DNA from: Eubacterium sp. An11
GTDB taxonomy: Bacteria; Bacillota; Clostridia; Lachnospirales; Lachnospiraceae
DNA: 64,000 nucleotides
Reading direction: 5' to 3'
Assembly (NCBI RefSeq): GCF_002161065.1
Contig: NZ_NFLV01000001.1
Location: 124,001 to 188,000 of the forward strand
In this document: positions 3,946-28,361 of the stretch, in pieces
Position numbering within the stretch: position 1 is the stretch's first letter
How the letters are laid out: each line of letters opens with the position of its first letter
Translations under genes and position numbers: made by a program
Notes under the pieces: generated by a model
The model's database searches: none
What the model was told of the DNA's origin: nothing
The model's input: only the letters and a program-made list of their open reading frames with translations

Positions 3946-4124
3946 GGGATTTGCGGCTTTGTATGTATCATAGAAAAACGCAGTCAGGGAAGTCTCCTCC
4001 TCCACTTCGGCAGGCTGGTAACCGGATTCCTTTTTGGTAATTACCATCGACGCCTGCGCTCACAGTCGTCGTCGATCTTCCCTGATTCGTTTTTCTATCA
4101 CGATTCTATCGTGCCGCAAATCCC
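3946..4124 (-). ncRNA. structured element A1: conserved core in covarying helices
   Basis: The outer helix pairs GGGATTTGCGGC (3946-3957) with GCCGCAAATCCC (4113-4124). The inner helix pairs ATAGAAAAACG-TCAGGGAAG (3970-3992) with CTTCCCTGA-CGTTTTTCTAT (4077-4098), about 20 pairs. A side hairpin is CACGAT-TCT-ATCGTG (4099-4113). The enclosed core (3993-4076) reads on the minus strand ACTGTGAGCGCAGGCGTC, a variable hairpin, then CTGCCGAAGTGGAGGAGG. The same core recurs at 28211-28302 inside helices of different sequence. The strand is unproven; minus is chosen only for the GC-rich, purine-rich core. I cannot assign it to a known RNA family. Confidence 0.5.
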
Positions 4125-4148
4125 TGTCTTCAACATCATCTGGATTAT

Positions 4149-4509
4149 AAATACCTGATTCAAACCGACAGAAGAGCTATCTGTGTGGTTTGCTCTGCAG
4201 GTTTATACCAGACAGATACAACCATAAATTTGGGTATCAGTTGATTCGTCTGTAACCATAACCTGCTGTTTTGTCAACGTAGCTCAGGATTTTTGTAAAG
4301 GTGGTACAGAGGCTTCTCAACAGGCAAATGACGTTTTGGACACATACGGCTTTCGACCGCGAGCTGTGAAGGAGGACTGAGATAGTCATTTTACAATAAT
4401 CCCCCTGGTCAGTCCGACTGAGGGTCGAGTCGGGCGAATCCGTATGTGCCCTTGCGTCATTGTCTGTCCGAGCGGATAGCTGCTACCACCTTTACAAATC
4501 CCAAATTTG
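4149..4509. repeat. dispersed repeat block, copy 1, with long nested hairpin
   Basis: About 360 bp closely similar to 28428-28790 in the same orientation. Its right part is a nested hairpin. GGATTTTTGTAAAGGTGGTA (4287-4306) pairs with TACCACCTTTACAAATCC (4484-4501), AAATGACG (4326-4333) with CGTCATT (4455-4461), and GGACACATACGG (4338-4349) with CCGTATGTGCCC (4440-4451). The terminal inverted repeats resemble those of a MITE, but no target duplication is obvious. Translations of it carry no family signature. Confidence 0.7.
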
Positions 4510-4627
4510 CAGAAAAAAAGTATAGTATTTTTTAATTTTTTATGATAATATAAAACTATAATCGATGCAGGAAGTCTTGTAAGGATTTCCTCCTGTTTTA
4601 CGAGGTATCTGGGAAGGGAGGGATATT

Positions 4628-5611
4628 ATGGGACAAAAAGATTTATCTGAAAAGATACTTGCAGATTACAATGATGTGTTTGCGGATATCGTTAATGTTC
4701 TTGTTCTGGAAGGAAGACAGCGGATCGATCCGGATGATCTGACGGCGGCAGCCGTTCATTCGCAGTATAAAGCGGATGATGGCGTTCTCCATGAGCAGGA
4801 AAGGGATGTCTCCAAATACTGGAAGAAACAAAAGATTCACATGGCTTTGTTTGGGATAGAGAACCAGACAGACATTGAAAAGAATATGCCGTTTCGTGTC
4901 ATCGGATATGACGGAGCAGCATACCGTCGGCAGCTGTTGCAAAAGAGGAAGCCTGTTCCGGTCATTACTTTGGTGCTGTATTTTGGAACGGAGAAAAGAT
5001 GGAACGAACCCTGTTCTGTCAAAGAACTTCTGGATATCCCGGAGGATCTGGACAAGTATGTCAGCGATTACAGCATGCACGTGTTTGATATCGCGTGGCT
5101 GACGGAAGAACAGCTGGCCATGTTTGAAAGTGATTTTGGCATTGTGGCGAATTTTTTCGTTCAAAAGAGAAAAAATGAAGATTATGTACCTGATGATAAG
5201 CGTATGATTCAACATGTGGATGAAGTACTGAAGCTGTTGTCTGTAATGACAGGAGATAACAGATATGCCAGTATTTTATCTTTTGAGAAAGAGGGGGTGA
5301 TGACTATGTGTGATGTCGCGGAAAGATTAGAGCAGAGAGGAATAAGGTGCGGCATAGAGCAAGGAATCGAGCAAGGGATAGAGCAGGGAATCGAGCAGGG
5401 GATAGAGCAGGGGATAGAGCAGGGAATCGAGCAGGGGATAGAGCGTGGTGTACAGATAGGAAAGATGCATTTGTATCGACTGGTTGCCGGCGGAAAGCTT
5501 GAGGTATTGGATGCTGCCCTGGAGCTTGGGCTGACGGAAGAAGAATTCATCAATGACATGAGGAAAGCCGGTTATGGGACAGAGACCGGTAAAGAAGGGC
5601 AGGATAAATAA
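4628..5611 (+). CDS. Rpn family PD-(D/E)XK nuclease
   Basis: A 327-residue member of the Rpn/transposase_31-like family, the recombination-promoting nucleases related to YhgA. The N-terminal region FADIVNVLVLEG and the FGIENQT...MPFRVIGYDGAAYRRQL block match the restriction-endonuclease-like core, where the E-x-Q replaces the usual E-x-K. The C-terminal third has eight near-perfect GIEQ tetrapeptides (codons at 5351-5446), a feature often seen in this family. RBS GGGAGGG precedes the ATG. It stands alone between a structured repeat region and a terminator. Its biological role is unproven. Confidence 0.8.
   Translation: MGQKDLSEKILADYNDVFADIVNVLVLEGRQRIDPDDLTAAAVHSQYKADDGVLHEQERDVSKYWKKQKIHMALFGIENQTDIEKNMPFRVIGYDGAAYRRQLLQKRKPVPVITLVLYFGTEKRWNEPCSVKELLDIPEDLDKYVSDYSMHVFDIAWLTEEQLAMFESDFGIVANFFVQKRKNEDYVPDDKRMIQHVDEVLKLLSVMTGDNRYASILSFEKEGVMTMCDVAERLEQRGIRCGIEQGIEQGIEQGIEQGIEQGIEQGIEQGIERGVQIGKMHLYRLVAGGKLEVLDAALELGLTEEEFINDMRKAGYGTETGKEGQDK
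5351..5446 (+). repeat. 12-bp tandem repeat coding for GIEQ
   Basis: Eight in-frame units alternating between GGAATCGAGCAG- and GGGATAGAGCAG-type variants, the last ending in GIER. Copy number changes would lengthen or shorten the protein without frameshift. Confidence 0.95.
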
Positions 5612-5620
5612 AATTATTGG

Positions 5621-5685
5621 CACCGGCTGTGGAGTGGCACCGGAAGAGAAATCTTTTGGAGTTTAATGCAGCCGGTGTTTTTTTT
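5621..5685 (+). terminator. terminator of the Rpn gene
   Basis: CACCGGCTG (5621-5629) pairs with CAGCCGGTG (5669-5677), followed by eight Ts. The loop is unusually long at about 39 bases. Confidence 0.8.
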
Positions 5686-5726
5686 AGGAATTTTCTGCAT
5701 TTATTAAAATGAAAAGTAAAAAGTTT

Positions 5727-5754
5727 TTGACATTTTTTGAAAGGATGATATAAT
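5727..5754 (+). promoter_or_regulatory. strong sigma-A promoter
   Basis: Consensus TTGACA (5727-5732), a 16-bp spacer and consensus TATAAT (5749-5754). It drives the three-gene cassette at 5796-7108. Confidence 0.85.
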
Positions 5755-5795
5755 CAAAATGTAAAGAACTTTTGTCATTTCAAGGAGGTGCTGTT

Positions 5796-6113
5796 ATGAG
5801 AAGAAGGAAGAATTTAGATGAGATGGAACAGGATATTTTAGTTCGGAGTATGGTTTGCGCTTACAAGTTTATGTTGATTGTGCTCTGTGTGTGGGTCATT
5901 GCAGGATTTTTTCTGAAGATTTCGGTGGTTCTGCCGGGATATATTCTTGTGGGGCAGGCGTTGGTACGTTTTATCTCAGAACAGATTTATAAACGAAGTG
6001 TGGATGATGAGCGATGGATACGCAATAGTATTGTTCTGTTATGTGGAATAGCTGTTGGTATTTTTATTATTCTGTTTATACCGCTGGCATATATTGGAAT
6101 GGGAGCATTGTGA
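5796..6113 (+). CDS. small three-helix membrane protein
   Basis: 105 residues. After a charged N-terminus (MRRRKNLDEMEQD) there are hydrophobic segments at about residues 18-35, 40-55 and 78-100. The start at 5796 is set by AAGGAGGTG (5782-5789); an in-frame ATG at 5772 lacks a site. The stop overlaps the next start (TGATG). Small membrane proteins translationally coupled to an XRE regulator are common in Firmicutes. I do not recognise a specific family, and the role may be sensing or anchoring. Confidence 0.75.
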   Translation: MRRRKNLDEMEQDILVRSMVCAYKFMLIVLCVWVIAGFFLKISVVLPGYILVGQALVRFISEQIYKRSVDDERWIRNSIVLLCGIAVGIFIILFIPLAYIGMGAL

Positions 6114-6307
6114 TGGAGAATAATATACGTAAACTGCGAAAAGAAAAGGGAATGCGACAGGAAGATTTGGCCAGATCCCTGGGGGTCTCCCGTCAGACCA
6201 TCAACGCCATAGAAAATAATAAATATAATCCCACACTGGAACTGGCCATGAGGCTGGCAAGGTTCTTAAATACCACAGTGGAAGAATTATTTATACTGGA
6301 GGACTGA
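6113..6307 (+). CDS. XRE-family helix-turn-helix regulator
   Basis: 64 residues, essentially only a Cro/CI-type HTH. RQEDLARSLGVSRQTINAIENNKYNPTL contains the recognition helix, and the protein ends with NTTVEELFILED, as in the YgzD/YozG-like mini-regulators. The start ATG overlaps the upstream stop. It probably regulates its own three-gene operon. No separate RBS is needed given coupling. Confidence 0.9.
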   Translation: MENNIRKLRKEKGMRQEDLARSLGVSRQTINAIENNKYNPTLELAMRLARFLNTTVEELFILED

Positions 6308-6313
6308 AGCACT

Positions 6314-7108
6314 ATGTCTGAATATAAGAATAGAAGAAAGATACTCTCTTGTCTGACCATTGCTGTAAGTTACGTGCTTGTGGCTAAAATATCAGGTGTG
6401 GCGCTGAAAAATTTGGCTGCTGTTTATAATATTCCATATCTGGAACTGATTCCTAAGATTATATGTGCAATATTTGCAATTCTGATCATGGGATATTTAC
6501 ACAGACAAAGCGTATTAAAGGGAACTCTGGAGTCCTTTTGGAAGGGGATTGCGACAGGAGGATTTTTAGGGGTTTATCTGCTGCTTATGATTATACTATT
6601 TTTCATATCAGATTTTTCAGCAGGCCAGTTAATTGAATCGTCCAGAGCGTTAGTTTTTATTTTCTCTATGTTCCTCACAGGATTTTCAGAGGAAATTATC
6701 TTTCGGGGCGTGATTTTGAATACATTGCGAGAGTCATTCAAAAAAGAAAGTAGAACAACTATTTATAAAGTGGTCATATTTTCCAGCTTAATTTTTGCGG
6801 TGATGCATCTGTCAAATATTTTTTCGGGAGTCCCTTTTAGTGCGGCGGTGATACAAATGGCTGGCGCATTTGGAGTAGGGTGTTATTTTGCGGCTATTTA
6901 TATGCGGTGTAATACAATCTGGGTGACGATTGTATATCATGCCATGATGAATTTTGTCAGTTTGATGGGAACAGAGTTGATGGGAGAAGGAGATGCGGTG
7001 TCGACAATCTCGGGCTATGGTCCGGAACGACTCATGGGGCTGATACTTTATCTGGGGCTGACTGTCTATCTGCTCCGGAAAACAAAAATGCAGGAGATGA
7101 TACATTGA
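6314..7108 (+). CDS. CPBP family intramembrane metalloprotease
   Basis: 264 residues with about seven or eight membrane segments. The CPBP (CAAX/Abi, Rce1-like) motifs are present: E126-E127-x3-R131 in SEEIIFRG, and H165 in FAVMHLSN, with a later N/H motif in VYHAMMNF. These residues line the active site in the membrane. Family roles include processing of prenylated or secreted peptides and self-immunity to bacteriocins. It lies 6 bases behind the HTH gene with a GGAGG site. The substrate is unknown, and no precursor peptide is visible here. Confidence 0.9.
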   Translation: MSEYKNRRKILSCLTIAVSYVLVAKISGVALKNLAAVYNIPYLELIPKIICAIFAILIMGYLHRQSVLKGTLESFWKGIATGGFLGVYLLLMIILFFISDFSAGQLIESSRALVFIFSMFLTGFSEEIIFRGVILNTLRESFKKESRTTIYKVVIFSSLIFAVMHLSNIFSGVPFSAAVIQMAGAFGVGCYFAAIYMRCNTIWVTIVYHAMMNFVSLMGTELMGEGDAVSTISGYGPERLMGLILYLGLTVYLLRKTKMQEMIH

Positions 7109-7148
7109 AAAAATGGCAGCGAAAGCTGTATCAGCCCGTCAAACACAA

Positions 7149-7192
7149 AAGCTCTGTTCTGTACAGGATATGCTCCTGACGAAACAGAGCTT
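7149..7192 (-). terminator. terminator between convergent genes
   Basis: AAGCTCTGTT/AACAGAGCTT with an inner CAGGA/TCCTG arm. Read on the minus strand it is followed by TTGTGTTT, so it best serves the serine hydrolase gene, while also lying after the CPBP gene. Confidence 0.6.
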
Positions 7193-7259
7193 AAATCATA
7201 ACAAAAATTATGACGATGATTACCGGAATTGCCGGCACTGCATACCGGCTGCAAATATT

Positions 7260-8123
7260 TTACAGCTGCGGACAGAGTTCTTCGTAGATGGCGTTCATCA
7301 GAGTTTTGCTGTCCCGGCATTCCGAGAGCATGGAAATGACGGCGTTTTGATCCGGAAAGACCATGGAATACTGGCAGTATTTTCCGTCGGCCCGGTACGA
7401 GTTATATTTGCCGCGCCAGAACAGATAGCCGTATGGGCCTGCGCCCTGCTGACTGGTACTTTCGTCGATCCATGCAGGGGAAAGAAGCTGACGGCCGTTC
7501 CATTTTCCCTTATTCAGATAAAACAGACCGAATTTGTGCAGCTCTGACAGGCTTAAAAACAATCCGCCGGCGCCGAAAGAATATCCGAGAGGGTCCATTT
7601 CCCAGGTGGGCTTCCGGATACCAAGGTGAGAAAAGAGTCTCGGCGTCAGGTAGGAAGTCAGGTCGCAGCCGGACCGGCGCTGCACAAGGACGCCGGCCAG
7701 ATATGGTCCCACGTTGCTGTAGAGAAAATGAGTTCCCGGTTCATGGGGCAGAGGAAAGGCCAGAGACATTTTGACCCAGTCGTCTTTTGGGCAGGTAACC
7801 CTCTGCTCCGCCATAAGCTGCGGCCTCTCCTCGCCGAGAGACATGGTCAGCAGGTCCCGGACGGTGGATTTGGCCAGATTCTCGCTGACCGTGTCCGGAA
7901 GGTCTTCCGGAAAGGCGTCCACCAGTTTTTCATCCAGAGAGAGAAGTCCCTCCTGAACGGCAAATCCCACGGCGCAGGAAGTGAAACTTTTGGTGGCGGA
8001 ATAAATGTTGCGTCGAATGTCCGGCTCGCTGTACCATTCGGCGGTCAGCCGGTCGTTTTGTGTGATTTTTACGCCCAGCACGCCCAGCGGGGCGGCAATG
8101 TCTGTAAAGGTTTCGATGTTCAA
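7260..8123 (-). CDS. serine hydrolase (class C beta-lactamase fold)
   Basis: 287 residues. The SxxK catalytic tetrad is SATK (S42, K45), and YxN is YSN (Y135, N137), defining the beta-lactamase/DD-peptidase superfamily. There is no signal peptide, so a cytoplasmic esterase or amidase-like role is more likely than antibiotic resistance. The start is TTG, with GAGG seven bases upstream; no in-frame ATG fits. It is close behind the LUD gene (97 bp) on the same strand. Confidence 0.85.
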   Translation of the reverse strand: MNIETFTDIAAPLGVLGVKITQNDRLTAEWYSEPDIRRNIYSATKSFTSCAVGFAVQEGLLSLDEKLVDAFPEDLPDTVSENLAKSTVRDLLTMSLGEERPQLMAEQRVTCPKDDWVKMSLAFPLPHEPGTHFLYSNVGPYLAGVLVQRRSGCDLTSYLTPRLFSHLGIRKPTWEMDPLGYSFGAGGLFLSLSELHKFGLFYLNKGKWNGRQLLSPAWIDESTSQQGAGPYGYLFWRGKYNSYRADGKYCQYSMVFPDQNAVISMLSECRDSKTLMNAIYEELCPQL

Positions 8124-8220
8124 TGCTGTTCCTCTTTTCCTGAAATAATAATCCTAAAATCCCGGGGCCTCCCGGGAAGATAATCCTTGAAATCCGATGG
8201 TTCCCCGCACAGAACGAATC

Positions 8221-8862
8221 TTAGAATCCCAGAGGTTCTCCCACAAGGATTACTTTGATCCTGTCCGGATAACGGGACATGCGGGTGGTGACAAAGGATG
8301 CGCAGATGGAAGAAGTAGAAGTACACTCTGCGCAGAACCCGGTTTTGGCACATGGAGTGTCAAGATTCAGCCGGATGGCGTTTGGCGGACAGGCGTGCTG
8401 GCGTATCCGGTCGCAGGCTTCTTCCACGGTAGCGCACATTTTATTCATACTCATCACGATGATCACATGTTTTGGGCCGTAACAGAGACAGCTGACGCGG
8501 TTGCCGTTTCCGTCAATATTGACGAGCTGTCCGTCGGCAGTAAACGCGTTGGAGCTCATGAGATAATAATCGGAAAGGATGTTTTTGGCGTGATATTCCC
8601 GTGCCTCCTGGTCATTTTTGGCCTGAGAACGGTCGATATATGTATAGTCCTCCGGATGGGACATCACGTAATCCAGCAGACCGATTTCTTTGATGGTAGC
8701 AGAGCCGCCGCTGCCCACTACGGAACCTTTTTCGATGAGGGAAATGGCCTTGGCGAGAGCATCCTCTTTGGTTGGACAGTAAAATGCCTCAAAATTTCTC
8801 CGTTTCATTTCTCCGATAATACGTTTGGCCTGAATAGCATAAGAAGATTCTTTTGGTGTCAT
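8221..8862 (-). CDS. LUD domain protein (LutC/YkgG-like)
   Basis: 213 residues of the LUD (DUF162) family. The GSVVGSGGSATIKEIGLLD segment is its conserved glycine-rich loop, and AECTSTSSICAS near the C-terminus supplies clustered cysteines. Family members assist L-lactate oxidation with iron-sulfur partners LutA/LutB, but no such partners are next to it, so it belongs to the stand-alone Clostridia group of unknown substrate. The start has an excellent AAAGGAGGT site. Confidence 0.88.
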   Translation of the reverse strand: MTPKESSYAIQAKRIIGEMKRRNFEAFYCPTKEDALAKAISLIEKGSVVGSGGSATIKEIGLLDYVMSHPEDYTYIDRSQAKNDQEAREYHAKNILSDYYLMSSNAFTADGQLVNIDGNGNRVSCLCYGPKHVIIVMSMNKMCATVEEACDRIRQHACPPNAIRLNLDTPCAKTGFCAECTSTSSICASFVTTRMSRYPDRIKVILVGEPLGF

Positions 8863-9020
8863 AAAATACCTCCTTTATTGATTTGGTATTTTTATTATAC
8901 GCACAAAAAAGAATTTCTGCAAATGATACCTGGATGAAAATGGTATCGTTTTTTACAATACATATGGCATAAGTCTTGCTAGAATAAGAGCGTGCTGAAC
9001 AAAATAAAGAAAAAGGCAAG

Positions 9021-9058
9021 GAAGTCTGTACAGAGTCGTACAGACTTCTTTCTATTTT
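9021..9058 (+). terminator. leader hairpin ahead of the catabolic operon
   Basis: GAAGTCTGTAC-AGAGTC-GTACAGACTTC, an 11-bp perfect stem followed by TTTCTATTTT, ending 20 bases before the first gene. A terminator at this point implies either attenuation of the operon or a boundary to upstream transcription. A TAGAAT -10-like hexamer lies upstream near 8978. Confidence 0.65.
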
Positions 9059-9078
9059 AAGGTGAAAAGAGGGAGTGT

Positions 9079-9417
9079 ATGGAAGCAAGGATTAAAAGAC
9101 ACCCCATTCTGGGAGAAATCAAAAAAGGAAGAACTGTTACATTTACCTATGATGGCAGGGAAATAGAAGGAAAGGAAGGAGAGCCGGTGGCCATGGCATT
9201 AAAGGCAGCCGGAGTGCAGATACACCGATACACGAAAAAGAAACATGAACCCCGGGGCATTTTCTGTGCGATTGGAAGGTGTACAGACTGCGTCATGGTA
9301 GTTGACGGTGTGCCGAATACAAGAACCTGCGTCACTCCGCTGCGGGAAGGGATGAAGGTGGAAACACAGTATGGTGTATCAGCACAACCTTATGAAGAAA
9401 GACAGACAGGGAGGTGA
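9079..9417 (+). CDS. (2Fe-2S)-binding small dehydrogenase subunit
   Basis: 112 residues. FTYDGREIEGKEGEPVAMAL plus the cysteine set GRCTDCVMVV...NTRTC matches the short ferredoxin-like small subunit (HcnA/SoxA-N/octopine oxidase gamma type) that passes electrons inside heteromeric amine or amino-acid dehydrogenases. It is the first gene of the operon, overlapping the spacer to the next by one GTG codon. Substrate identity is not revealed. Confidence 0.9.
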   Translation: MEARIKRHPILGEIKKGRTVTFTYDGREIEGKEGEPVAMALKAAGVQIHRYTKKKHEPRGIFCAIGRCTDCVMVVDGVPNTRTCVTPLREGMKVETQYGVSAQPYEERQTGR

Positions 9418-9422
9418 GCAGA

Positions 9423-11003
9423 ATGATCAAACGTTATGATTTGATCGTAATAGGAGCCGGTCCCTCGGGATTATCCGCTGCGATTGAAGCTGCAAAAAGA
9501 AAAATGTCTGTGATTGTTTTTGATGAAAATGAAAAACCGGGAGGCCAGTTATTTAAACAGATACATAAGTTTTTTGGTTCCAGGGAACATAAAGCGAGGA
9601 TCCGGGGATATGTCATTGGACAGGAATTGTTAAAAGAAGCTTCAGAAGCCGGCGTGGAAGTGGTACTTCATGCCACAGTGACCGGACTGTATATGGATAA
9701 AGAGATCGTCGTTCAGATCGGAGATGCAATGTATCATTATAAAGGAGACGCCATTATCGTTGCAACGGGCGCGGCGGAAAATATGGTACACTTCGATGGA
9801 TGGACATTGCCGGGAGTCATTGGAGCCGGGGCGGCACAGACAATGATGAATCTTCACGGAATCCGTCCGGGCAGCCGGATCCTGATGGTGGGAACCGGAA
9901 ATGTGGGCTTGGTGGTGAGTTATCAGCTTCTGCAGGCGGGATGTGAAGTGGCTGCTCTGGTTGACGCCGCTCCGCGTATCGGCGGGTATGGTGTTCACGC
10001 CGCTAAGGTGGCGAGAACCGGCGTTCCTTTCTGGCTCTCCCACACCGTTGTAAAGGCGGAGGGAACAGACAGGGTGACCGGAGCGGTGATCGCGAAAGTG
10101 GATGAGAAATTCCAGTTTATCCCGGGTACAGAGAAACATCTGGATGTTGATACCATCTGCCTGGCCGTGGGATTGTCACCGATGGCACAGCTTTTAAAAA
10201 TGGCCGGATGTAAAATGGATGACAGGCCGGGGCATGACGGGACAACGCCTCTTTGTAAAGAAAATGGAGAAACTTCTATTCCTGGTATTTATGCGGTGGG
10301 AGATGTCTCGGGCATTGAGGAGGCAAGCTCAGCCATGATAGAAGGAAGGATGGCTGGCATTGCCGCAGCTTCCTATCTGGGATATGAAGATGAAAAGAAA
10401 AGCGAAGAGGAGATCCAAGAACAGGAAGAATCGCTGGGGAGCCTTCGGAAAGGAATGTTTGCTCCGGAAAACAGAGGAAAAATACTGAAGACAACGGAAG
10501 AAGGCATTCCGCTTTCGGAAACTCTTCTGAAAAAGGGATATGTGGCTGATGAGGAAATCGAACGATTCCCGGGCGTCACACATAAAGTGGGTATTCACCC
10601 GGTGATGGAATGTACCCAGAATATTCCCTGCAACCCCTGTCAGGATGTCTGCCCGAAACACTGTATCCGTATCGGAGAAGATATCACAGCGCTGCCTCAG
10701 GTGGAAGAGGATGGAACATGCATTGGCTGTGGTCTCTGCGTGGCTTCCTGTTCCGGACAAGCGATTTTTCTCGTAGATGAAAATGCGGAAAACGGAATGG
10801 CAGAAGTGACGATTCCTTATGAATTTCTTCCATATCCGGAAGAAGGAGAAAAAGGAATCGGTCTCGGAAGAGATGGAAAAAAATTGTGCGTGGCGGAAAT
10901 CGTGCAGGTAAAAAAAGCAAAGGCATTTGATCATACAGCTCTTGTAACCATGCGGGTACCGGGGGACATGGCCATGAGAGTACGATTTTATAAAAAAGAT
11001 TAG
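9423..11003 (+). CDS. FAD/NAD-binding dehydrogenase subunit with ferredoxin domain
   Basis: 526 residues. It has an N-terminal FAD Rossmann motif GAGPSG, a second dinucleotide site ILMVGTGNVG near residue 155, and then two 4Fe-4S motifs in CNPCQDVCPKHC and CIGCGLCVASC, with a C-terminal tail. This resembles the alpha subunit of opine oxidase, hydrogen cyanide synthase HcnB and archaeal dye-linked proline dehydrogenase, here with an added ferredoxin module. The start at 9423 is chosen because GGGAGGTG ends six bases before it; the in-frame GTG at 9414 lies inside that site. Confidence 0.92.
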   Translation: MIKRYDLIVIGAGPSGLSAAIEAAKRKMSVIVFDENEKPGGQLFKQIHKFFGSREHKARIRGYVIGQELLKEASEAGVEVVLHATVTGLYMDKEIVVQIGDAMYHYKGDAIIVATGAAENMVHFDGWTLPGVIGAGAAQTMMNLHGIRPGSRILMVGTGNVGLVVSYQLLQAGCEVAALVDAAPRIGGYGVHAAKVARTGVPFWLSHTVVKAEGTDRVTGAVIAKVDEKFQFIPGTEKHLDVDTICLAVGLSPMAQLLKMAGCKMDDRPGHDGTTPLCKENGETSIPGIYAVGDVSGIEEASSAMIEGRMAGIAAASYLGYEDEKKSEEEIQEQEESLGSLRKGMFAPENRGKILKTTEEGIPLSETLLKKGYVADEEIERFPGVTHKVGIHPVMECTQNIPCNPCQDVCPKHCIRIGEDITALPQVEEDGTCIGCGLCVASCSGQAIFLVDENAENGMAEVTIPYEFLPYPEEGEKGIGLGRDGKKLCVAEIVQVKKAKAFDHTALVTMRVPGDMAMRVRFYKKD

Positions 11004-11058
11004 AGAACTTCCCGGCAAAGAAAGAGCTATTTGTGAAAAAGCAGGGAGGATGAAAATT

Positions 11059-12581: not shown

Positions 12582-12602
12582 TTCGTTTATGGAGGGATAA
12601 AC

Positions 12603-20634: not shown

Positions 20635-20648
20635 AAATTGAGAAGAAG

Positions 20649-20791: not shown

Positions 20792-20815
20792 GTAATTTAT
20801 GAGAAAATAAATTAC
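20792..20815. promoter_or_regulatory. perfect inverted repeat, candidate operator
   Basis: GTAATTTAT-GAGAAA-ATAAATTAC, nine-base perfect arms, about 90 bases upstream of the NifU-like gene. A candidate promoter (TTGTCT, 16 bp, TACATA at about 20828-20855) lies just downstream, and another inverted repeat GACTTA/TAAGTC overlaps it. Confidence 0.5.
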
Positions 20816-20901
20816 ATGTGAGGACGTTTGTCTTGACTTAGGGATTACATACATAAGTCGATCACAAAAACAAATCAATTAAAACCGAAAGGAGTAATAA
20901 C

Positions 20902-21606
20902 ATGATTATTTCACAAGAAGTCGAAAATATGTGTCCAGTAGCTCAGGGCGTACATCACGGAGCCGCTCCTATTCCAGAAGAAGCAAAATGGGTGAAAGCC
21001 AAAGAAGTAAAAGACATTTCCGGTTTTACACACGGCATTGGCTGGTGTGCTCCTCAGCAGGGTGCCTGTAAGTTAACTCTTAATGTCAAAGAAGGTATCA
21101 TCCAGGAAGCACTGGTGGAGACCATCGGATGTTCCGGTATGACACACTCCGCAGCTATGGCTTCCGAGATCCTTCCGGGTCTTACCGTTATGGAAGCTCT
21201 GAACACAGACCTTGTCTGTGATGCGATCAACACAGCAATGCGTGAATTATTCTTACAGATTGTTTACGGCCGTTCTCAGTCTGCATTCTCCGAAGACGGA
21301 CTTCAGGTTGGCGCTGGTCTTGAAGACCTTGGAAAGGGCCTTCGTTCTCAGGTTGGTACTATGTATGGTACTCTTCAGAAAGGACCTCGTTACCTTGAGA
21401 TGGCAGAAGGTTATGTAACAGGAATCGCCTTAGACGAAGACGATCTGATTATCGGTTACAAGTTTGTAAATCTTGGAAAGATGACTGATTTCATCAAAAA
21501 AGGAGACGACCCTAACACAGCTTGGGAAAAGGCTGCAGGACAGTACGGACGTGTGGAAGATGCTGCCAAGATTATTGACCCTAGAACAGACGAAGTAATT
21601 GGTTAA
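20902..21606 (+). CDS. NifU-like iron-sulfur cluster scaffold family protein
   Basis: 234 residues. The NifU_N/IscU-like fold is indicated by IQEALVETIGCSGMTHSAAMASEILPGLTVMEAL, with cysteines at about 49, 56 and 77 corresponding to cluster ligands. It is longer than IscU. The pairing with a GGGtGRT protein 18 bp downstream is characteristic of anaerobic Clostridia; the joint function is unknown. Codon choice (many C-ending and preferred codons) suggests high expression. The RBS is AAAGGAG. Confidence 0.88.
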   Translation: MIISQEVENMCPVAQGVHHGAAPIPEEAKWVKAKEVKDISGFTHGIGWCAPQQGACKLTLNVKEGIIQEALVETIGCSGMTHSAAMASEILPGLTVMEALNTDLVCDAINTAMRELFLQIVYGRSQSAFSEDGLQVGAGLEDLGKGLRSQVGTMYGTLQKGPRYLEMAEGYVTGIALDEDDLIIGYKFVNLGKMTDFIKKGDDPNTAWEKAAGQYGRVEDAAKIIDPRTDEVIG

Positions 21607-21623
21607 GCAGGAGGTAAAGAATA

Positions 21624-22634
21624 ATGGCATTATTTGAATCATATGAAAGAAGAATTGATAAGATTAATTCTGTATTAAACAGCTACGGCATCGCTTCCCT
21701 GGAAGAAGCTGAAAAGATTACAAAAGATGCTGGTCTTGACGTTTACGGCATGGTAAAAGGCATCCAGCCGATCTGTTTTGAGAATGCATGCTGGGCTTAC
21801 ACTGTAGGTGCAGCCATCGCTATCAAAAAGGGCGCAAAAAAGGCTTCCGAGGCAGCAGCAGCCATCGGTGAAGGTCTTCAGGCTTTCTGTATTCCTGGAT
21901 CCGTTGCCGAGAACAGAAAAGTTGGTCTTGGACATGGTAACCTTGGTAAAATGCTTCTGGAAGAAGATACAGAATGTTTCGCATTCCTGGCTGGTCATGA
22001 GTCCTTCGCAGCTGCAGAGGGTGCCATCGGTATCGCAGAGAAAGCGAACAAAGTACGTCAGAAACCGCTCCGTGTTATCTTAAACGGTCTCGGAAAAGAC
22101 GCTGCTCAGATCATTTCCCGTATCAACGGTTTCACATTTGTTGAGACAGAATATGATCCATACACAAACACTGTAAAAGAAGTATTCCGCAAATCTTACT
22201 CCGATGGTTTACGTGCAAAAGTTAACTGCTACGGCGCGAACGACGTATGTGAAGGTGTTGCTATCATGTGGAAAGAGAACGTTGACGTTTCCATCACAGG
22301 TAACTCCACTAACCCTACTCGTTTCCAGCATCCGGTAGCAGGTACTTACAAGAAAGAAAGACTGGAAGCAGGAAAGAAATACTTCTCCGTAGCATCCGGC
22401 GGTGGTACAGGACGTACCCTTCATCCGGATAACATGGCAGCAGGTCCTGCATCCTACGGTATGACAGATACCATGGGACGTATGCACTCCGACGCACAGT
22501 TCGCAGGTTCCTCCTCCGTACCGGCTCACGTTGAGATGATGGGCTTGATCGGAATGGGTAACAACCCTATGGTAGGTGCTACTGTTGCTGTTGCCGTTTC
22601 CGTAGAAGAAGCTGCTAAGGCTGGTAAGTTCTAA
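21624..22634 (+). CDS. GGGtGRT family protein
   Basis: 336 residues of the family named after its motif, seen here as GGGTGRT at residues 259-265. It is rich in Gly and Ala with conserved histidines (HGN, GHESF). It has no signal peptide or membrane segment. The function of the family is not established; co-occurrence with a NifU-like protein suggests cluster or metal handling. AGGAGG-type RBS; spacing of 18 bp to the upstream gene shows one operon. Confidence 0.9.
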   Translation: MALFESYERRIDKINSVLNSYGIASLEEAEKITKDAGLDVYGMVKGIQPICFENACWAYTVGAAIAIKKGAKKASEAAAAIGEGLQAFCIPGSVAENRKVGLGHGNLGKMLLEEDTECFAFLAGHESFAAAEGAIGIAEKANKVRQKPLRVILNGLGKDAAQIISRINGFTFVETEYDPYTNTVKEVFRKSYSDGLRAKVNCYGANDVCEGVAIMWKENVDVSITGNSTNPTRFQHPVAGTYKKERLEAGKKYFSVASGGGTGRTLHPDNMAAGPASYGMTDTMGRMHSDAQFAGSSSVPAHVEMMGLIGMGNNPMVGATVAVAVSVEEAAKAGKF

Positions 22635-22693
22635 GAAAACGTATAAGTCATACAAACTGTCAGTTGAGATGGCAGATAAATATTTAGTACGAA

Positions 22694-22730
22694 AAAAACC
22701 GCATTGGTCCCTGGGACCGATGCGGTTTTT
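22694..22730 (+). terminator. strong bidirectional-looking terminator
   Basis: CCGCATTGGTCCC/GGGACCGATGCGG stem flanked by an A-run on the left and TTTTT on the right. Confidence 0.9.
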
Positions 22731-22815
22731 GAATATAATAGAAAAAATAACGCAGAAAAGAAAAATAGAAAGATGCCTGAGTTTAAAAGACTTAAAAAAT
22801 ATGACGGTATACAGC

Positions 22816-22845
22816 AAAAAAACCGGCCCCTCGGGCCGGTTTTTA
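22816..22845 (+). terminator. second intrinsic terminator
   Basis: ACCGGCCC-CTC-GGGCCGGT with flanking A-run and TTTT, 90 bases after the first. It could terminate a short independent RNA made from this gap. Confidence 0.8.
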
Positions 22846-22862
22846 TAAAAAGAGAGAAAAGT

Positions 22863-22940
22863 ATGAAAAAAATCTATCAAATAATTGCTTCCTGTTATTT
22901 GATGGTTTTATTCTACAGCAGGTTTGTGAACAGGCTGTGA
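22863..22940 (+). CDS. possible 25-residue hydrophobic peptide
   Basis: MKKIYQIIASCYLMVLFYSR is followed by five more residues and TGA. It has a basic N-terminus and hydrophobic middle, as in small membrane peptides or truncated signal peptides. AGAGAG is eight bases upstream. It could equally be a truncated gene; no homology is recognised. Confidence 0.25.
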   Translation: MKKIYQIIASCYLMVLFYSRFVNRL

Positions 22941-23163
22941 GCGAAGAATGACGATTATCTGAAGAAAACTTACGGAAATGTGACGAAGCAGCCACAAAAA
23001 AAGAGTAAAAATGCTGTGATGACGGTAAATAAGACATATCTTACATCCTCGGATACGCTCAAATGTGGTATTTTATAATTATATCCGGAAAAAGAGGAAG
23101 CGGTTATACATGCGGATGACAGAGAGGCGAAGCTGACGGTACTAAAGAGAGGGGAACGAGGAA

Positions 23164-23391
23164 ATGAAAGACTTATATGCGGTTATGGATAAAATGCTGA
23201 TGGTGGAATCGGAATTGCAGGCGTTGGAAACCGTGACGGCAATTATGAAAGAAGGATGCAGGACAAAAGAAAGTCAGGAGATGGAAGACATGTTATATGT
23301 AATTGAAACATATCTTTTGGGTGTCACAAAACACCTGAGGAGCAGTATTCACAGCCTGGATGAATTTTTGGCAGAACAAAAAAGGGATTAA
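23164..23391 (+). CDS. small helical protein, unknown
   Basis: 75 residues, predicted all-helical with heptad-like leucines (MDKMLMVESELQALETVTAI) and one cysteine. GAGG precedes the ATG. It faces a convergent XRE regulator across a shared terminator. No family recognised. Confidence 0.6.
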   Translation: MKDLYAVMDKMLMVESELQALETVTAIMKEGCRTKESQEMEDMLYVIETYLLGVTKHLRSSIHSLDEFLAEQKRD

Positions 23392-23440
23392 AAATAAGCA
23401 GTATCTTTCATATAAATTAAAAAATACTGCTTATTTTTTT
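23391..23440. terminator. shared bidirectional terminator
   Basis: AAATAAGCAGTAT pairs with ATACTGCTTATTT, flanked by A- and T-runs. It overlaps the stop codon of the minus-strand regulator. Confidence 0.85.
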
Positions 23441-23664
23441 GGATATTCTTTTTTTATGCTGCTGACACCGGTAATATAATCCATAGATACGTTGTAGAAT
23501 TCGGCCAGAATGATAAGACTGTCCACAGGAATCCGTGTTTTTCCACTCTCATAGTCTGAGTAGGTTCTCTGCCCGATGTGGAGAAGATCAGCAATTTTCT
23601 GTTGTGTCAGGAAATGATCCTCTCTGATTTCGCGAATACGTTCATTATATTTGATAGCTCTCAC
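23431..23664 (-). CDS. XRE-family HTH regulator
   Basis: 77 residues with a Cro/CI-type HTH: LTQQKIADLLHIGQRTYSDYESGKTRIP, then the usual amphipathic helices (LIILAEFYNVSMDYITG). The most upstream start is GTG 23664, but that codon is the end of the GGGAGGTG box itself, so true initiation may be at a nearby non-standard codon (for example ATC nine bases on). The DNA-binding part is unaffected. Confidence 0.88.
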   Translation of the reverse strand: MRAIKYNERIREIREDHFLTQQKIADLLHIGQRTYSDYESGKTRIPVDSLIILAEFYNVSMDYITGVSSIKKEYPKK

Positions 23665-23839
23665 CTCCCTGCCTGAGTAATAATAATATTTTTACAGAAA
23701 AATCTTTCTTTTTTATGTTGAACAAAAAAGAATTCTTTAAAACAGTATAAATAGAAAACAGTTTAGAATTGACAAATAGAGTTATAAACTCTAAGATATA
23801 TGTACAAAATCTTGGATGAGGTAAAGGAAAGAATCATTG

Positions 23840-24295
23840 ATGTTCATATGGTGTATACTGTCCGGAATGTTTATACTGTTTTTGGCAGCTTTGTGTTTGA
23901 TGACAGGTTTTAAAAAAGGAATAGATGAGAAGAATACAGAAAATGCAGCGGTAAAACTGGGCTGCATCCGCGGAATAGATGGGGAGTACAGGGGGAGAGA
24001 GTTTTCGATCCATGCCGGAGATGAGATACGAATCGGAAGAAATGGAAGGGAAAATGATCTGGTTCTTGACAGTTACGGGATTGAAGAGAAACATTGCGTT
24101 ATTGTTTATGAAGAGAATACAGAAAAATATTTGGTAAAGAATGTATCGGAACGGGGAGTCTGCCGGCTGGCGTCCGGTATCCTTTTAAAGAAGGAGGAGA
24201 GCGCTGTTCTGGAAGAAGGAGATCTTATTGATCTGGGAGAAAGTCAAATTTTTCAGGTGGGCGAAAGGAAAGTGGATGAAAATCACATCAGATAA
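23840..24295 (+). CDS. membrane-anchored FHA domain protein
   Basis: 151 residues. One N-terminal membrane helix (FIWCILSGMFILFLAALCLM) is followed by an FHA phosphothreonine-binding domain. IRIGRNGRENDLVLDSYGIEEKHCVI supplies the GR and K-H positions (the usual S-x-x-H is E-x-x-H-like), and VKNVSERGVC supplies the N. It probably reads Ser/Thr kinase signals at the membrane. TTG 23837 is an alternative start; the upstream AAAGG fits either. Confidence 0.82.
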   Translation: MFIWCILSGMFILFLAALCLMTGFKKGIDEKNTENAAVKLGCIRGIDGEYRGREFSIHAGDEIRIGRNGRENDLVLDSYGIEEKHCVIVYEENTEKYLVKNVSERGVCRLASGILLKKEESAVLEEGDLIDLGESQIFQVGERKVDENHIR

Positions 24296-24510
24296 AGAAG
24301 AAAGTAATTTACATATTTTTATAATTTTTTCTTTGTATTCTTGTAAAAAGTAGTGACATTTTGATTGTGATATACTATGATGATTTCAAATAGCATGTTC
24401 TGTATGAATACGCATCAGGGCGCGCCATACATGGATGGATCCTGGCGGCTGTTAAGTTTATAAAGTGGCTGGCAGAGAAACAGAATGAACGGAGGATAAA
24501 AGGTATCGTC

Positions 24511-26538
24511 ATGAAAATTCCAGCGTTTTTCAATCAATGCACATCATCATATAAAAAATACCGCACCTGGAAACTTGCTTCCCGCCAGACTATCTGGTAC
24601 AGAATCTGGAATCTGTTTCTGGATCTTTTCCTGGCCCTGGTGTCTGTTCTTCCGCTTTTGATGGTCATCTGCCGCAGCGTGCCGTTTTCTTATGAGGTCA
24701 ATGACGACGCCACCATCGTGCAGATCCTCGATGGCTCTTATACGGGCACGCCGGACGGACACAGTATTTTTGTGCGATATCCCCTTTCGTGGATCATAAA
24801 AACCCTCTATGAAAAGAATCCGGCACTGCATCTGGGCAGAGAGACCTTTCAGAATGTAAACTGGTATGTGGCGGTTATCGTGATGCTGGAAGTGTTCGCG
24901 CTGACGGCTGTGCTGTTCCGGTTGCTGCAGTATTTTACATATAACCGCATCCTGCTCTGCATCCTTTATGATATAGGATTTGTATTTCTCTGGCTGCCGT
25001 GCTTTTCCAATATGACTTTTTCCACAGCGGCGGCCTTTATGGGCTGCATGGGCGTGCTGTTTTTCGGGCTCATGCGCCGGGAGGAGGCATGGCGGCCGTG
25101 GAATCTTCTGATCCTGGGCACATTGCTGCTGTCGGCCTGGTGTCTGCGGAAGCAGTGTTTTCTCATGGTGCTGCCATTTCTCTGTCTGGAACTTATTTTT
25201 AAATATCATATCCATTTTTTCCGTTCGGTAAAGCCGTGGTTTATCGGCGCATTTCTTGCCGCCTTCCTGGGTGTCGCCTTCTTTTGGGATGGTCAGATGT
25301 ATTCTTCCCGGGAGTGGAAGGACTATCTCCAATATAATCAGGACCGGGCGTATCTCCAGGATTACGTGGGATTTCCCAAATATAATCAAAAACATAAAGC
25401 GTTTTATGACGCCGCCGGTATCAGCGAAAACGGCAGAGACGCCATGGCGAAATATACTTACTGCCTGGTGGACGGATTCAGCACCGACTGGGTGGAACAG
25501 ACATGGCTTTATGTGAAAGGACAGAAAGGAGAACTGCCGCTGGCAGAGCGCATGGAGAAAGCGGTGCCCAGGGCAGGAAAGTACCTGCTGGAGGGAAGAC
25601 AGACGGAGGAAAGTCTGAAAAAGGCGTCGTTCTATCCGTTTCTGCTGCTGATGCCGCTGTCCGTTCTGACTGCCCTATATCTGACGGTGAAAATGCTGCA
25701 GGAGCCAACGAAGAAGGTATCCCAGGATACAACATTGCCGGAGAAAAAAGGAAGAACGTTGCAGTCAGAAGCGATGGAAGAGTCGTCCATAACGAAGACT
25801 TTTCCTTTCTCAAATCGTTGGAACGTAATTCTTTCCTGTATCAAGGGTGCTGGCGGTTATCTGTGGACACTGTTGTCCATTGCCGCCATGAGCATTATTT
25901 TGTGGCTGGAATGGGTGTATCTTGCCATGAATGGAAGATTTCCGCAGCGGGTAGAGGAGACGATTCGGCTGCTGACCTTATGTGCGGGCGTGTTGTTTGT
26001 CTGTAAACTGCTGCATTTCTGGAAACGAAACCGGATGACGCATATTCCTGTAATCCTGCAGGTGGCAGTGCTGGTTCTGTTTTTAAACAGCGGTCTTGTG
26101 ACGGCCCGGCTGACAAAGATACAGGGAGTACAGCAGTATCACCTGCAGTACGCGGCAGAGAAAGCCGAAGTGCTTGAATATTGCGGAGCCCATAAGGACA
26201 GCTGGTTTATTCTGGATACGAGAAGTTTCACGAAAATGTCCCGGCCGGAGGACGATCTCCATCAGGGCAACTGGTTCATGTCCGGGAGCTGGACGGCCTA
26301 TTCGCCGCTCTATACAAAGAAGCTGGCGGCCGCGGGAACGGACAGCCTTGGTTCAGAGTTCCTTCTCAGAGATAATGTGTTCCTGATAACAAAGGGAAAG
26401 AAAAACATGTCGGCTCTTCTTGGTCTGCCGGAGAATCGACAGGCGGAGAGCGAGATTGTGGATGAGATCATGAGCAGCGGCAATAATTTCTATATGGTGT
26501 ATAAGATTACAGGGATAACGGAGCGGAAAGAGCAATGA
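24511..26538 (+). CDS. large polytopic membrane protein, GT-C glycosyltransferase-like
   Basis: 675 residues with about 10-12 membrane helices. The first large extracytoplasmic loop after TM1 contains NDDATIVQILDGSYTG, reminiscent of the DD/DE motif in GT-C glycosyltransferases that use lipid-linked sugars, and the C-terminal 150 residues form a soluble outer domain. This assignment is by architecture only. The stop overlaps the next start (ATGA), so it works with the SH3 protein. GGAGG lies upstream. Confidence 0.7.
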   Translation: MKIPAFFNQCTSSYKKYRTWKLASRQTIWYRIWNLFLDLFLALVSVLPLLMVICRSVPFSYEVNDDATIVQILDGSYTGTPDGHSIFVRYPLSWIIKTLYEKNPALHLGRETFQNVNWYVAVIVMLEVFALTAVLFRLLQYFTYNRILLCILYDIGFVFLWLPCFSNMTFSTAAAFMGCMGVLFFGLMRREEAWRPWNLLILGTLLLSAWCLRKQCFLMVLPFLCLELIFKYHIHFFRSVKPWFIGAFLAAFLGVAFFWDGQMYSSREWKDYLQYNQDRAYLQDYVGFPKYNQKHKAFYDAAGISENGRDAMAKYTYCLVDGFSTDWVEQTWLYVKGQKGELPLAERMEKAVPRAGKYLLEGRQTEESLKKASFYPFLLLMPLSVLTALYLTVKMLQEPTKKVSQDTTLPEKKGRTLQSEAMEESSITKTFPFSNRWNVILSCIKGAGGYLWTLLSIAAMSIILWLEWVYLAMNGRFPQRVEETIRLLTLCAGVLFVCKLLHFWKRNRMTHIPVILQVAVLVLFLNSGLVTARLTKIQGVQQYHLQYAAEKAEVLEYCGAHKDSWFILDTRSFTKMSRPEDDLHQGNWFMSGSWTAYSPLYTKKLAAAGTDSLGSEFLLRDNVFLITKGKKNMSALLGLPENRQAESEIVDEIMSSGNNFYMVYKITGITERKEQ

Positions 26539-27419
26539 GGAACGAGAAGAAAACAGGGGAAAAAGTTTTTGGAATCCTGATGGACCTGTGCGCGGTTGTT
26601 GTTTTGGTCGTTGTGGCGGCAGGAACCTTCCGGTATATGAAGAGAGAATATTTTCCGAGGGAAACAGGCAGTGATTATGTGGACAAGATGGAGCGGGACG
26701 GACAGAGCGAAACCGGAGATTCCGGCAGGGAGGAAACAGACCTGTCCCAGCCTGCGTCCGCTCAGGTCCGTTCCGGCACCTGGTGTACCTTAAAGAGTAA
26801 TTCTCTGGACGGGGTGCCTGTCTATCCGGAGGCGGGCGGAACTTTTTCGTCCGGCCTTCTGCCAGAGGGAAAATGCTGTGAACTGACAGGGACGCAGGAG
26901 TATGAAGGGGATGTCTGGGCGCGGGTGTCCTACTGCGGTCAGAGCGGATGGCTGAAACTGGAAGAGCTTCATTATATTTCCGGGGATGCGTGTTATATCC
27001 GGCCGGGAGATACGGTCTATGTAAATGCGCTGACAGAAAAAGGAATCAAAGGGTATAAGGCTCCGTCGTCCTCCTCGGAAATTGCAGAGGAAGGTATTGT
27101 TTACGGCACAGAATTTACGGTACAGGAATTCAAAAACGGCTGGGGGCTGGTGCAGACAGACAATAGTAAGTTCTGGCTTAATATGTATCATATGGGCAGC
27201 TATCCGGTAAAAAGCTGGAGAGTGGAGACTTTAAGCAGTGCAGCGGAGATCAATCTCAGGGAGGACCCCGATGAAGGAGCCGGAAGTCTTTGCAAAGTGC
27301 CGGAAGACACTGTGGTGACAGTGGAAAGATTCAAAAACGGCTGGGGAAAAATCCGATATGAAGGGCAGGAGGGCTGGGTGATGCTTCATTACCTGACGCC
27401 GGTGGAAGAGAATCACTAA
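26535..27419 (+). CDS. membrane-anchored protein with three SH3-like domains
   Basis: 294 residues. A TM helix at about 14-30 anchors an extracellular part: a linker rich in Ser/Glu, then three bacterial SH3-like segments (about 85-145, 150-225 and 233-290), the last with INLREDPDEGAG...GWGKIRYEGQEGWV typical of SH3_3. Such domains bind peptidoglycan peptides. Overlap of 4 bp with the GT-C-like gene suggests a shared cell-envelope function. Confidence 0.82.
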   Translation: MRNEKKTGEKVFGILMDLCAVVVLVVVAAGTFRYMKREYFPRETGSDYVDKMERDGQSETGDSGREETDLSQPASAQVRSGTWCTLKSNSLDGVPVYPEAGGTFSSGLLPEGKCCELTGTQEYEGDVWARVSYCGQSGWLKLEELHYISGDACYIRPGDTVYVNALTEKGIKGYKAPSSSSEIAEEGIVYGTEFTVQEFKNGWGLVQTDNSKFWLNMYHMGSYPVKSWRVETLSSAAEINLREDPDEGAGSLCKVPEDTVVTVERFKNGWGKIRYEGQEGWVMLHYLTPVEENH

Positions 27420-27455
27420 AAATGCAGGAAATCATGAAAAAGGCAAAAAACAAAC

Positions 27456-27562
27456 AGAGGCTGTGACAAAGGACTCGCTGTCTTTGGTGCGCTGCGAATA
27501 TTTTCAGAGAAAATATATGTATGTTGCACCGGCAGAAGATCTTTGCCGCAGCCTCTCGTTTT
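27456..27562. terminator. cloverleaf-like structured terminator between convergent genes
   Basis: The outer stem AGAGGCTG (27456-27463)/CAGCCTCT (27549-27556) encloses three arms. Arm 1 is CAAAG/CTTTG (27467-27486). Arm 2 is GGTGC/GCACC (27486-27530) with an inner ATATTTTC/GAAAATAT hairpin. Arm 3 is CGGCA/TGCCG (27530-27548). TTTTTT follows on the plus strand and GTTTGTTTTTT on the minus strand, so it should terminate both convergent genes. The layout recalls a dispersed Lachnospiraceae intergenic repeat, which I cannot confirm here. Confidence 0.65.
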
Positions 27563-27589
27563 TTAGAGAAAAGTAAAACTGTGTATTTC

Positions 27590-28009
27590 TTATGAGGAAG
27601 GAGTACTGAGTTTTTCCAGAGATTTTTTCAAAATATCCTGTTCCTCAGGGGAAAAAGCAGTCATCACGTCATCGTTGAACTGTTCCACTGTGCGAAGAAC
27701 ATCATCTTTCAGGGAAGCCCCCTTATCGGTGAGAACTACTTCAATGTAGCGGCGGTCTTTTTTACTGACCTGACGTTCGATCAGATTTTTTTTCTCCATT
27801 CTTTCAAGAACGCCGGAAATAGTGGAATTCTCCAGCTGAAGTCTGTCTGCGATTTCTCTTGGAGTATGAATATCTGTCTCCCAGAGATAATATAAAACTC
27901 CATACTGAACCGGTGTGACATCATAAGGTTCCAGACGGGCGCTCATGGCCTGAAAGACTCTGCGCTGCGCCGTTGTCAATAAATAGTTAATACAATGTGT
28001 TAATTCCAC
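27590..28009 (-). CDS. MarR-family transcriptional regulator
   Basis: 139 residues with the winged-helix fold. QYGVLYYLWETDIHTPREIADRLQLENSTISGVLERMEKKNLIERQ spans the HTH, and KDRRYIEVVLTDKGASL is the wing with its D-x-R motif. It binds DNA as a dimer, typically as a repressor relieved by an acid or CoA ligand. Palindromes at the acd, crt and etfB promoters suggest that it controls the surrounding acyl-CoA genes. It is separated from acd by the repeat region. Confidence 0.92.
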   Translation of the reverse strand: MELTHCINYLLTTAQRRVFQAMSARLEPYDVTPVQYGVLYYLWETDIHTPREIADRLQLENSTISGVLERMEKKNLIERQVSKKDRRYIEVVLTDKGASLKDDVLRTVEQFNDDVMTAFSPEEQDILKKSLEKLSTPSS

Positions 28010-28092
28010 GATGCTTCTCCTTATCCCGTTAGTCTGCCGTCCGCAGTATGTCGTTCTTTATTATATCGAGAGAACACAGAATTCGGACAGCT

Positions 28093-28112
28093 AATAATTT
28101 GTATACTATTTA
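28093..28112. promoter_or_regulatory. degenerate MarR-type site upstream of marR
   Basis: ATAATTTGTATACTATTTAT shares its left half exactly with the etfB operator (35617-35636) but its right half is diverged. It lies upstream of a TATAAT (minus strand, 28060-28065). Autoregulation is possible. Confidence 0.35.
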
Positions 28113-28149
28113 TTATAAACAGGATTTTGGAACTGTCAAGGGCAGGTGA

Positions 28150-28361
28150 GGATTTGTAAATCTCTTTGCAGCCCACAGAAGGCTGCTTTACCGAAGACAA
28201 GGCATTGATAAAAGTTTTCCTCCTCCACTTCGGCAGACTGGTACCTGACTGTATTTCATCAATATAAATCAGACGCCTGCGCTCACAGTCGTCGTCAAAC
28301 CATATCAATACCTCGTCTTCTCCAAATGCAGTCTGCGTGCATAGAGATTTACAAAGAATCC
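28150..28361 (-). ncRNA. structured element B1: second copy of the conserved core
   Basis: The outer helix pairs GGATTTGTAAATCTCT (28150-28165) with AGAGATTTACAA-AGA-ATCC (28343-28361). A side hairpin is GCAGCC/GGCTGC (28168-28186). The inner helix pairs GAAGAC-AGG-ATTGATA (28193-28210) with TATCAAT-CCT-GTCTTC (28303-28320). The core 28211-28302 repeats the element A1 core almost exactly apart from a variable inner hairpin, which is CTGA/TCAG here and GGTAA/TTACC in A1. Helix sequences differ from A1 yet pairing is kept. Strand unproven. Confidence 0.5.

Follow-up and report, generated by a model that had tools for sequence, protein, structure and literature searches.

The window analysed here is the 64,000-nucleotide stretch at positions 124,001–188,000 (forward strand) of contig NZ_NFLV01000001.1 from Eubacterium sp. 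An11 (assembly GCF_002161065.1), and the coordinates given below count from its first letter. Two of its loci probably belong, as modules, to a new family of mobile repeats that are non-autonomous, depend on structure, resemble miniature inverted-repeat transposable elements (MITEs) and occur in a few genomes of one genus. The copies are dispersed, modules have been exchanged in a mosaic fashion, the helices covary, and a nearly invariant core is present in at least five helix contexts. The stems have been rewritten several times and yet remain matched around an almost fixed centre, and the folded shape itself therefore seems to matter. A preliminary description had presented the two loci as a candidate structured RNA in two copies, with a conserved core enclosed by re-paired helices. 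Its minus-strand reading of both loci and the core common to them (78 nt in each) hold, whereas the discrete two-copy RNA is not supported, since each piece is one hairpin module, at the end of a larger, dispersed MITE-like element (Table 1).

Copy number, architecture and distribution

The An11 genome is a 3.9-Mb draft in 104 contigs. A search for the exact core pattern returns 42 occurrences in it (22 forward and 20 reverse) and none for the control in which the pattern is reversed; model R1 yields 43 hits, and a count of two copies was therefore wrong. Module A has 47 matches, of which 17 span 127 or more of the 179 bases, and module B has 51. When element 1 was used as the query (625 nt, 3886–4510) 49 matches were obtained, several of them near full length at 80–86% identity, and most near-full-length matches to element 2 start at position 28150 and stop at 28786–28795. 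Several contigs end within B copies that are 97–100% identical to the one in the window, as expected of recent spread.

The elements are about 500–750 nt long, mostly 615–647 nt (about 615–640 nt for the pair in the window), and consist of two long hairpins of about 180–280 nt arranged head to head around a spacer. The module pairings are C-A, B(-)-A(+) and C-B(+), where the head-to-head arrangement of module C rests on a core-like sequence judged by eye. Over positions 28430–28792, element 2 shares 84% identity with the module C and spacer sequence of element 1. One chimera (L017/L059) switches from B to A at the core, its 5' half being B and its 3' half A, and in two deletion derivatives (L023 and L025) the 5' half of A is missing. 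The elements end in short inverted repeats (GGATTTGT...ACAAATCC), like the terminal inverted repeats of MITEs, and as in MITEs there are many short copies lacking coding capacity; no open reading frame (ORF) of at least 100 residues lies inside either window element, and one (28731–29108) overlaps an end. The exact end sequence GGATTTGTAAA is found 49 times in the genome and its reversed control twice.

Among 24 genomes of the genus, model R1 has 43 hits in An11, seven in G001, seven in G023 and three weak ones in G022 (E-values 5e-5 to 9e-4), and none in the remaining 20. Over 299 genomes of the family, An11 included, only An11 gave hits, under stricter filters and with only 11 candidates scored per genome. 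The exact core pattern is absent from 789 wider genomes (396 of the family and 397 of the phylum, four being in both), a search that diverged cores would escape. Phages and plasmids gave no match at an E-value of 1e-5, and viral contigs no exact match to the core.

The conserved core and its loop

The core consists of the two halves 5'-GACGACGACTGTG and 5'-GTGGAGGAGG, which are nearly invariant in 37 aligned A and B copies from An11 (L059, which is at the same place as L017, was left out together with L040, L041 and L046, which have no complete core with arms). When the halves are paired, C-G, U-A or G-C pairs are separated by two-base mismatches. Three of the four tandem GA/AG blocks are intact in all 37 copies and the fourth in 35, and one UG/UG block is present in all 37. 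RNA folding parameters predict this tandem G-A helix, and a helix between the core halves in which tandem G-A mismatches alternate with C-G pairs is thus a well-motivated model, although not proven. What had been described as conserved single strands is accordingly better read as a non-Watson-Crick helix.

A short stem with a hypervariable loop of about 36 nt, lying between the two halves, caps the core. In binned comparisons between An11 copies, mean divergence is 0–5% in the core, 2–25% in the rest of the module and 6–49% in the loop; L003 and L006 differ by 5.5% outside the loop and by 42% within it. The inner variable hairpin of the preliminary description is this loop, and its re-pairing can be seen by eye in some copies only.

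Rfam 15 gave no match at curated scores in the whole 64-kb window, and a loose search of the two loci returned only eukaryotic families with E-values of 1.8–6.6, in agreement with the earlier failure to place the loci in a known class. Transfer RNA and transfer-messenger RNA were considered as identities and none matched. No published description of these repeats or of the core was recognised, in a search with thin coverage of subscription journals.

Folding and covariation

Copy A folds as RNA at -75.2 kcal/mol, compared to -43.4 +/- 3.6 for 200 shuffled sequences, none of which was as good. With a few bases beyond the ends included and 20 shuffles each, element 1 folds at -230 kcal/mol (-163 +/- 4.8 shuffled) and element 2 at -227 (-178 +/- 8.7). 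The plus strand of element 1 folds about equally well (-243 against -174 +/- 6.0), as expected of near-palindromes.

In all 37 copies taken together, 98.2% of the cells are paired against 87.6% after shuffling, and the covariation score is 0.362 against 0.180, a value reached in 0 of 500 shuffles. Much of this signal is the difference between A and B, and the modules were also counted separately. Inside B (18 sequences from two genomes) there are 5 pairs with double changes against 1.9 in the shuffles (0 of 500 reached this), and the number of further pair types was reached by 62 of 500; inside A (20 sequences from three genomes) there are 9 against 2.5 (0 of 500), and further pair types were reached by 7 of 500. 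Sliding the partner by 1–3 columns lowers the cells paired to 33–58% in all three sets, with a slid score of at most 0.101. The B set comprises 17 of the 20 An11 B rows of alignment A1 and L103, and the A set 12 of the 17 An11 A rows (without L002, L008, L009, L012 and L017) and eight sequences from G001 and G023, with L110, L112, L113 and L116 from other genomes left out. The structures counted for A and B were written by hand from the window folds, so they derive from the same sequences, and the shuffles and slides ignore kinship. Alignment A2 was kept out of the counts because it is fitted to the model.

Measured against shuffles and slides, the covariation comes out in favour of the helices, inside A as well as inside B. 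The objection that they might be no more than the junctions of an insertion fails, because they are part of the repeated unit and covary within it. As to the proposed structured RNA, the conserved core, the compensatory helices and the covariation within each module remain, but pairing does not distinguish RNA from single-stranded DNA: selection for folding alone does not imply RNA, because a single DNA strand would yield the same pattern.

G-U cells exceed A-C cells in module A (43 to 16) and in module C on the strand with the core-like sequence (89 to 56), and are about equal in module B (36 to 33), which makes the asymmetry inconsistent across modules. Partial or chimeric copies (L015 and L017 for A; L040, L041, L046, L057 and L059 for B) and C hits that were identical or under about 200 nt were left out of this count.

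Other helices around the same core

The arms of A and B are unrelated in sequence, and yet the best partner of each arm is its own, as claimed before. Divergent hits add further types, namely D in G001, E in pilus operons of G000 and G023, and F in G022, so that at least five different flanking helices carry the core across four genomes and the picture of a constant core within re-paired helices is borne out. When arms were ranked as partners, the own arm came first in 12 of 17 representatives and second in two; the 17 are not independent tests because members of one type resemble each other. The corresponding test of the inner stem is weaker, with the own partner first in six of 17, which is to be expected wherever the stem is common to A and B. 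By eye, A and D share their outermost stretch CAGGGATTTGC. The core varies slightly with type: some cores have two GAC units, type F lacks the innermost GA block, and in E_L119a it reads GTGGAAGAG.

On the contig that also carries L087, in G001 (Candidatus Anaerobutyricum avicola), three type D hairpins lie in tandem about 420–460 nt apart (L101, 1084–2039, minus strand), two being sufficiently strong hits and one weak. A B element is located just upstream of a hypE-like frame in G000 (L044), and a type F unit lies between hypD-like and hypE-like frames in G022 (L108); judged by eye, this is the same interval with different unit types.

Element locations

Mapping from 41 chosen A and B hits, rather than from every match of A, B and element 1, gave 33 elements, some of them cut by contig ends. 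A gene 3' end lies within 15 nt of 21 of these and a gene 5' end within 15 nt of two; the frame behind one of the 21 (C61) overlaps the element and is doubtful, which leaves 20. The flanking genes are convergent at 11 elements, tandem at 13 and divergent at two, with seven undetermined, using a simple ORF caller instead of a gene finder and with frames inside the elements masked. The places are unrelated: 54 of the 59 neighbouring proteins (five spurious-looking frames were left out) match 119 Pfam families, none of which is matched by more than two of the 54.

According to the ORF caller, the stop codon of the host gene is placed 9–12 nt inside the element at nine ends, six of which read GGATTTGTAA by eye.

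Pilus operons

In locus L119, two tandem type E units lie in sense orientation between two genes; by Pfam, the one on one side encodes a SpaA-type protein with an LPXTG-type anchor and the one on the other a sortase. In L120 and L114 one type E unit each, also in sense, lies between similar pilin-like and sortase-like frames, which were judged by eye as Pfam was run on the L119 proteins only; the type E units thus lie upstream of sortase genes. The orthologous operon of G011, with a sortase that is 72% identical and two stops in the matched stretch, has no unit there and only a short interval with a simple hairpin and a ribosome-binding region. The unit might have been gained in one lineage or lost in G011, and this single comparison cannot discriminate between the two.

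A skipping-rope RNA (RF02924, 62 bits) is found at 9360–9444 on the plus strand of L119, a few kb from the pilus operon units, and it is the only Rfam match in L119, L120, L114, L102, L105, L108 and L116.

Features of the two elements and their surroundings

Table 1. Parts of the two composite elements in the window.
Feature	Coordinates	Strand	Description
Element 1, type C-A	3888..4502	-	Ends GGGATTTGT and ACAAATCCC; order on minus strand: module C, spacer, module A
Hairpin module A	3946..4124	-	Outer helix GGGATTTGCGGC/GCCGCAAATCCC, side hairpin, helix ATAGAAAAACG/CGTTTTTCTAT
Core of A	3996..4073	-	5' half 4073-4052, variable loop 4051-4016, 3' half 4015-3996
Outer shell of module A	3888..4170	-	TGTCGGTTTGAATC.../...GATTCAAAGCGACAAATCCC; boundary approximate
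Spacer between C and A	4171..4287	-	Itself a predicted hairpin; boundaries approximate
Hairpin module C of element 1	4288..4502	-	GGGATTTGTAAAGGTGG/CCACCTTTACAAA
Core-like sequence of module C	within 4288..4502	opposite (plus)	Divergent, CTGTGAAGGAGGACTG...CAGTCCGACTGAGGGTC; likeness to A/B judged by eye
Element 2, type C-B	28150..28787	-	Ends GGATTTGT and ACAAATCCC
Hairpin module B	28150..28361	-	Helix GAAGACGAGGTATTGATA/TATCAATGCCTTGTCTTC, outer helix TTTGTAAATCTC/GAGATTTACAAA, side hairpin
Core of B	28219..28296	-	5' half 28296-28275, variable loop 28274-28239, 3' half 28238-28219
Spacer of element 2	28362..28571	-	Boundaries approximate
Module C of element 2	28572..28787	-	By identity to element 1

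A GC-rich palindromic repeat (ATTTCATAGGAAATTG...CTCCTATGAAATAAAAAACGCTCCGCG...) abuts element 1 at 3745–3886, and among the loci compared here a 134-nt copy of it (96% identical) adjoins the deletion derivative L025. The ORF beside element 1 (4628–5611, plus strand) matches PF04754 (Transposase_31, YhgA-like) at 1e-9. Five Pfam families have two matches each among the 54 neighbour proteins; PF04754 is none of these, and no association is claimed.

Possible mode of action and alternative explanations

In the mechanism that we propose, a trans-acting factor, which might be a transposase or a protein that binds RNA or single-stranded DNA, would recognise the folded core; selection would then keep the core and the pairing but not the sequence of the helices, because it is the folded core that is recognised. 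Copies would accumulate right behind gene ends because insertions should be tolerated there, and they would be co-transcribed as very stable hairpins in 3' untranslated regions (3'-UTRs) or between cistrons, which is how they would most likely act on the host directly. The folded strand could be either RNA or single-stranded DNA. It is possible, and put forward here as a tentative suggestion, that the GACGACGACTGTG/GTGGAGGAGG hairpin represents a new functional class of nucleic acid, in which a helix of repeated tandem G-A blocks, together with a hypervariable loop, is read as a folded strand by a dedicated trans factor. Such a hairpin would serve the spread of the mobile elements, possibly via an RNA or single-stranded DNA intermediate, and after capture would work as an element between the cistrons of pilus operons.

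Several results weigh against structure-dependent mobile repeats. With DNA parameters the tandem G-A helix is not predicted, and the 5' core half folds on itself while the outer helix still closes on both strands. When all 37 copies are counted together, the ten pairs with double changes are reached by 37 of 500 shuffles, and in three representatives the own arm falls outside the top two partners (third for E_L119b, 11th for E_L119a and 17th for X23_L116). No target-site duplication was found in the 21 elements with both ends, the longest junction repeat being 1.95 nt on average against 2.14 +/- 0.19 with the right ends permuted. Four GGATTTGTAAA sites judged to be outside known copies are one module-C fragment and three unrelated sequences, none of them autonomous in the 104-contig draft. 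The search for an autonomous partner covered two transposase families. Y1 transposase (PF01797) does not track the elements, with one incomplete match in An11, one match each in G001 and G023, none in G022, and matches in 13 of the 20 genomes that lack the elements; none of the four genomes with elements has PF13808. A search for an empty site with element 2 and its flanks gave a best sister match only 68% identical to the flank, the sisters being too distant.

The repeats might instead carry a cis- or trans-acting structured RNA, such as a 3'-UTR stabiliser, a processing signal or a protein-binding site, with a core selected at the RNA level in the interest of the host. The four type E copies in sense between pilin-like and sortase-like genes (two in L119, one each in L120 and L114), the tandem G-A core that appears in the RNA fold and is absent from the DNA fold, and the excess of G-U in module A and on the core-like strand of C all point in this direction. 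We nevertheless consider it rather unlikely, as the four pilus copies, being homologous, perhaps go back to one event and the G011 operon has no unit, module B lacks the asymmetry, the neighbouring genes are from many different families, and the type F unit of L108 is, by eye, antisense to the surrounding hypD- and hypE-like frames. TnpA of IS200/IS605 acts on a folded DNA strand, and by analogy the core could be the recognition site of a transposase or recombinase of this kind. The long hairpin ends, the lack of a detected target-site duplication, and the core or core-like sequences on opposite strands at the two ends of an element would suit this explanation, which is nonetheless doubtful in view of the Y1 distribution, since G022 has type F units and no Y1 transposase.

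That the core encodes a conserved peptide is highly improbable. In one frame GACGACGACTGTGAGCGC reads DDDCER and the B copy of the window is open through the core in that frame, but A copies stop in the loop in the same frame (CGA TGG TAA in L001, CGA TGA in L006) and the double changes keep the pairing of the helices. Homogenisation of the core by gene conversion with no selection on structure is also very unlikely; recombination through the core is suggested by the L017/L059 chimera and by loops in some B copies that look A-like by eye, yet a tract spanning both conserved halves would have homogenised the loop between them, which is the most variable part, and other genomes retain this core within different helices.

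With mobile, structure-dependent repeats as the preferred explanation, some consequences follow. Recognition of small bacterial repeats usually relies on their ends. Here a fixed hairpin centre with stems that differ wholly between types and are still paired points to recognition of a non-Watson-Crick fold, and five helix types with dozens of loops offer a natural mutagenesis series for finding the protein that reads it. The case also indicates that a two-copy, riboswitch-like pattern can arise from mobile repeats.

Comparison with known repeats

MITEs are short repeats with inverted ends, no gene, many intergenic copies and strong secondary structure, and the present repeats share all of these traits. 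They differ in that the best-conserved part is the middle of a hairpin, that the arms differ between types and covary, and that no duplication was seen and no parent is known. Hairpins at the element ends and no target duplication are characteristic of IS200/IS605 and of REP/RAYT systems, as in the present elements, whereas here the hairpins are about 180–280 nt long with a tandem G-A core and the distribution of Y1 transposases does not match. Kink-turns and other tandem G-A RNA motifs have tandem G-A mismatches beside C-G pairs, and so does the present core, but its GA blocks recur every three bases and, by eye, no three-base bulge like that of the kink-turn stands out.

MITEs and other small interspersed repeats of bacteria are reviewed in PMC2229807. 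According to PMC3049150, BOX of Streptococcus pneumoniae is a modular composite repeat with a varying number of boxB modules, BOX and SPRITE are both overrepresented between convergent genes, SPRITE is located near gene 3' ends, and they are nearly absent from most relatives. Compared by these descriptions and not by sequence, our repeats have a similar placement and BOX is likewise modular; the difference from BOX is that our elements join two unlike hairpins in head-to-head orientation and have a non-Watson-Crick core that is nearly invariant. Taken as a whole, the repeats resemble known small mobile repeats, and their core is distinctly unusual.

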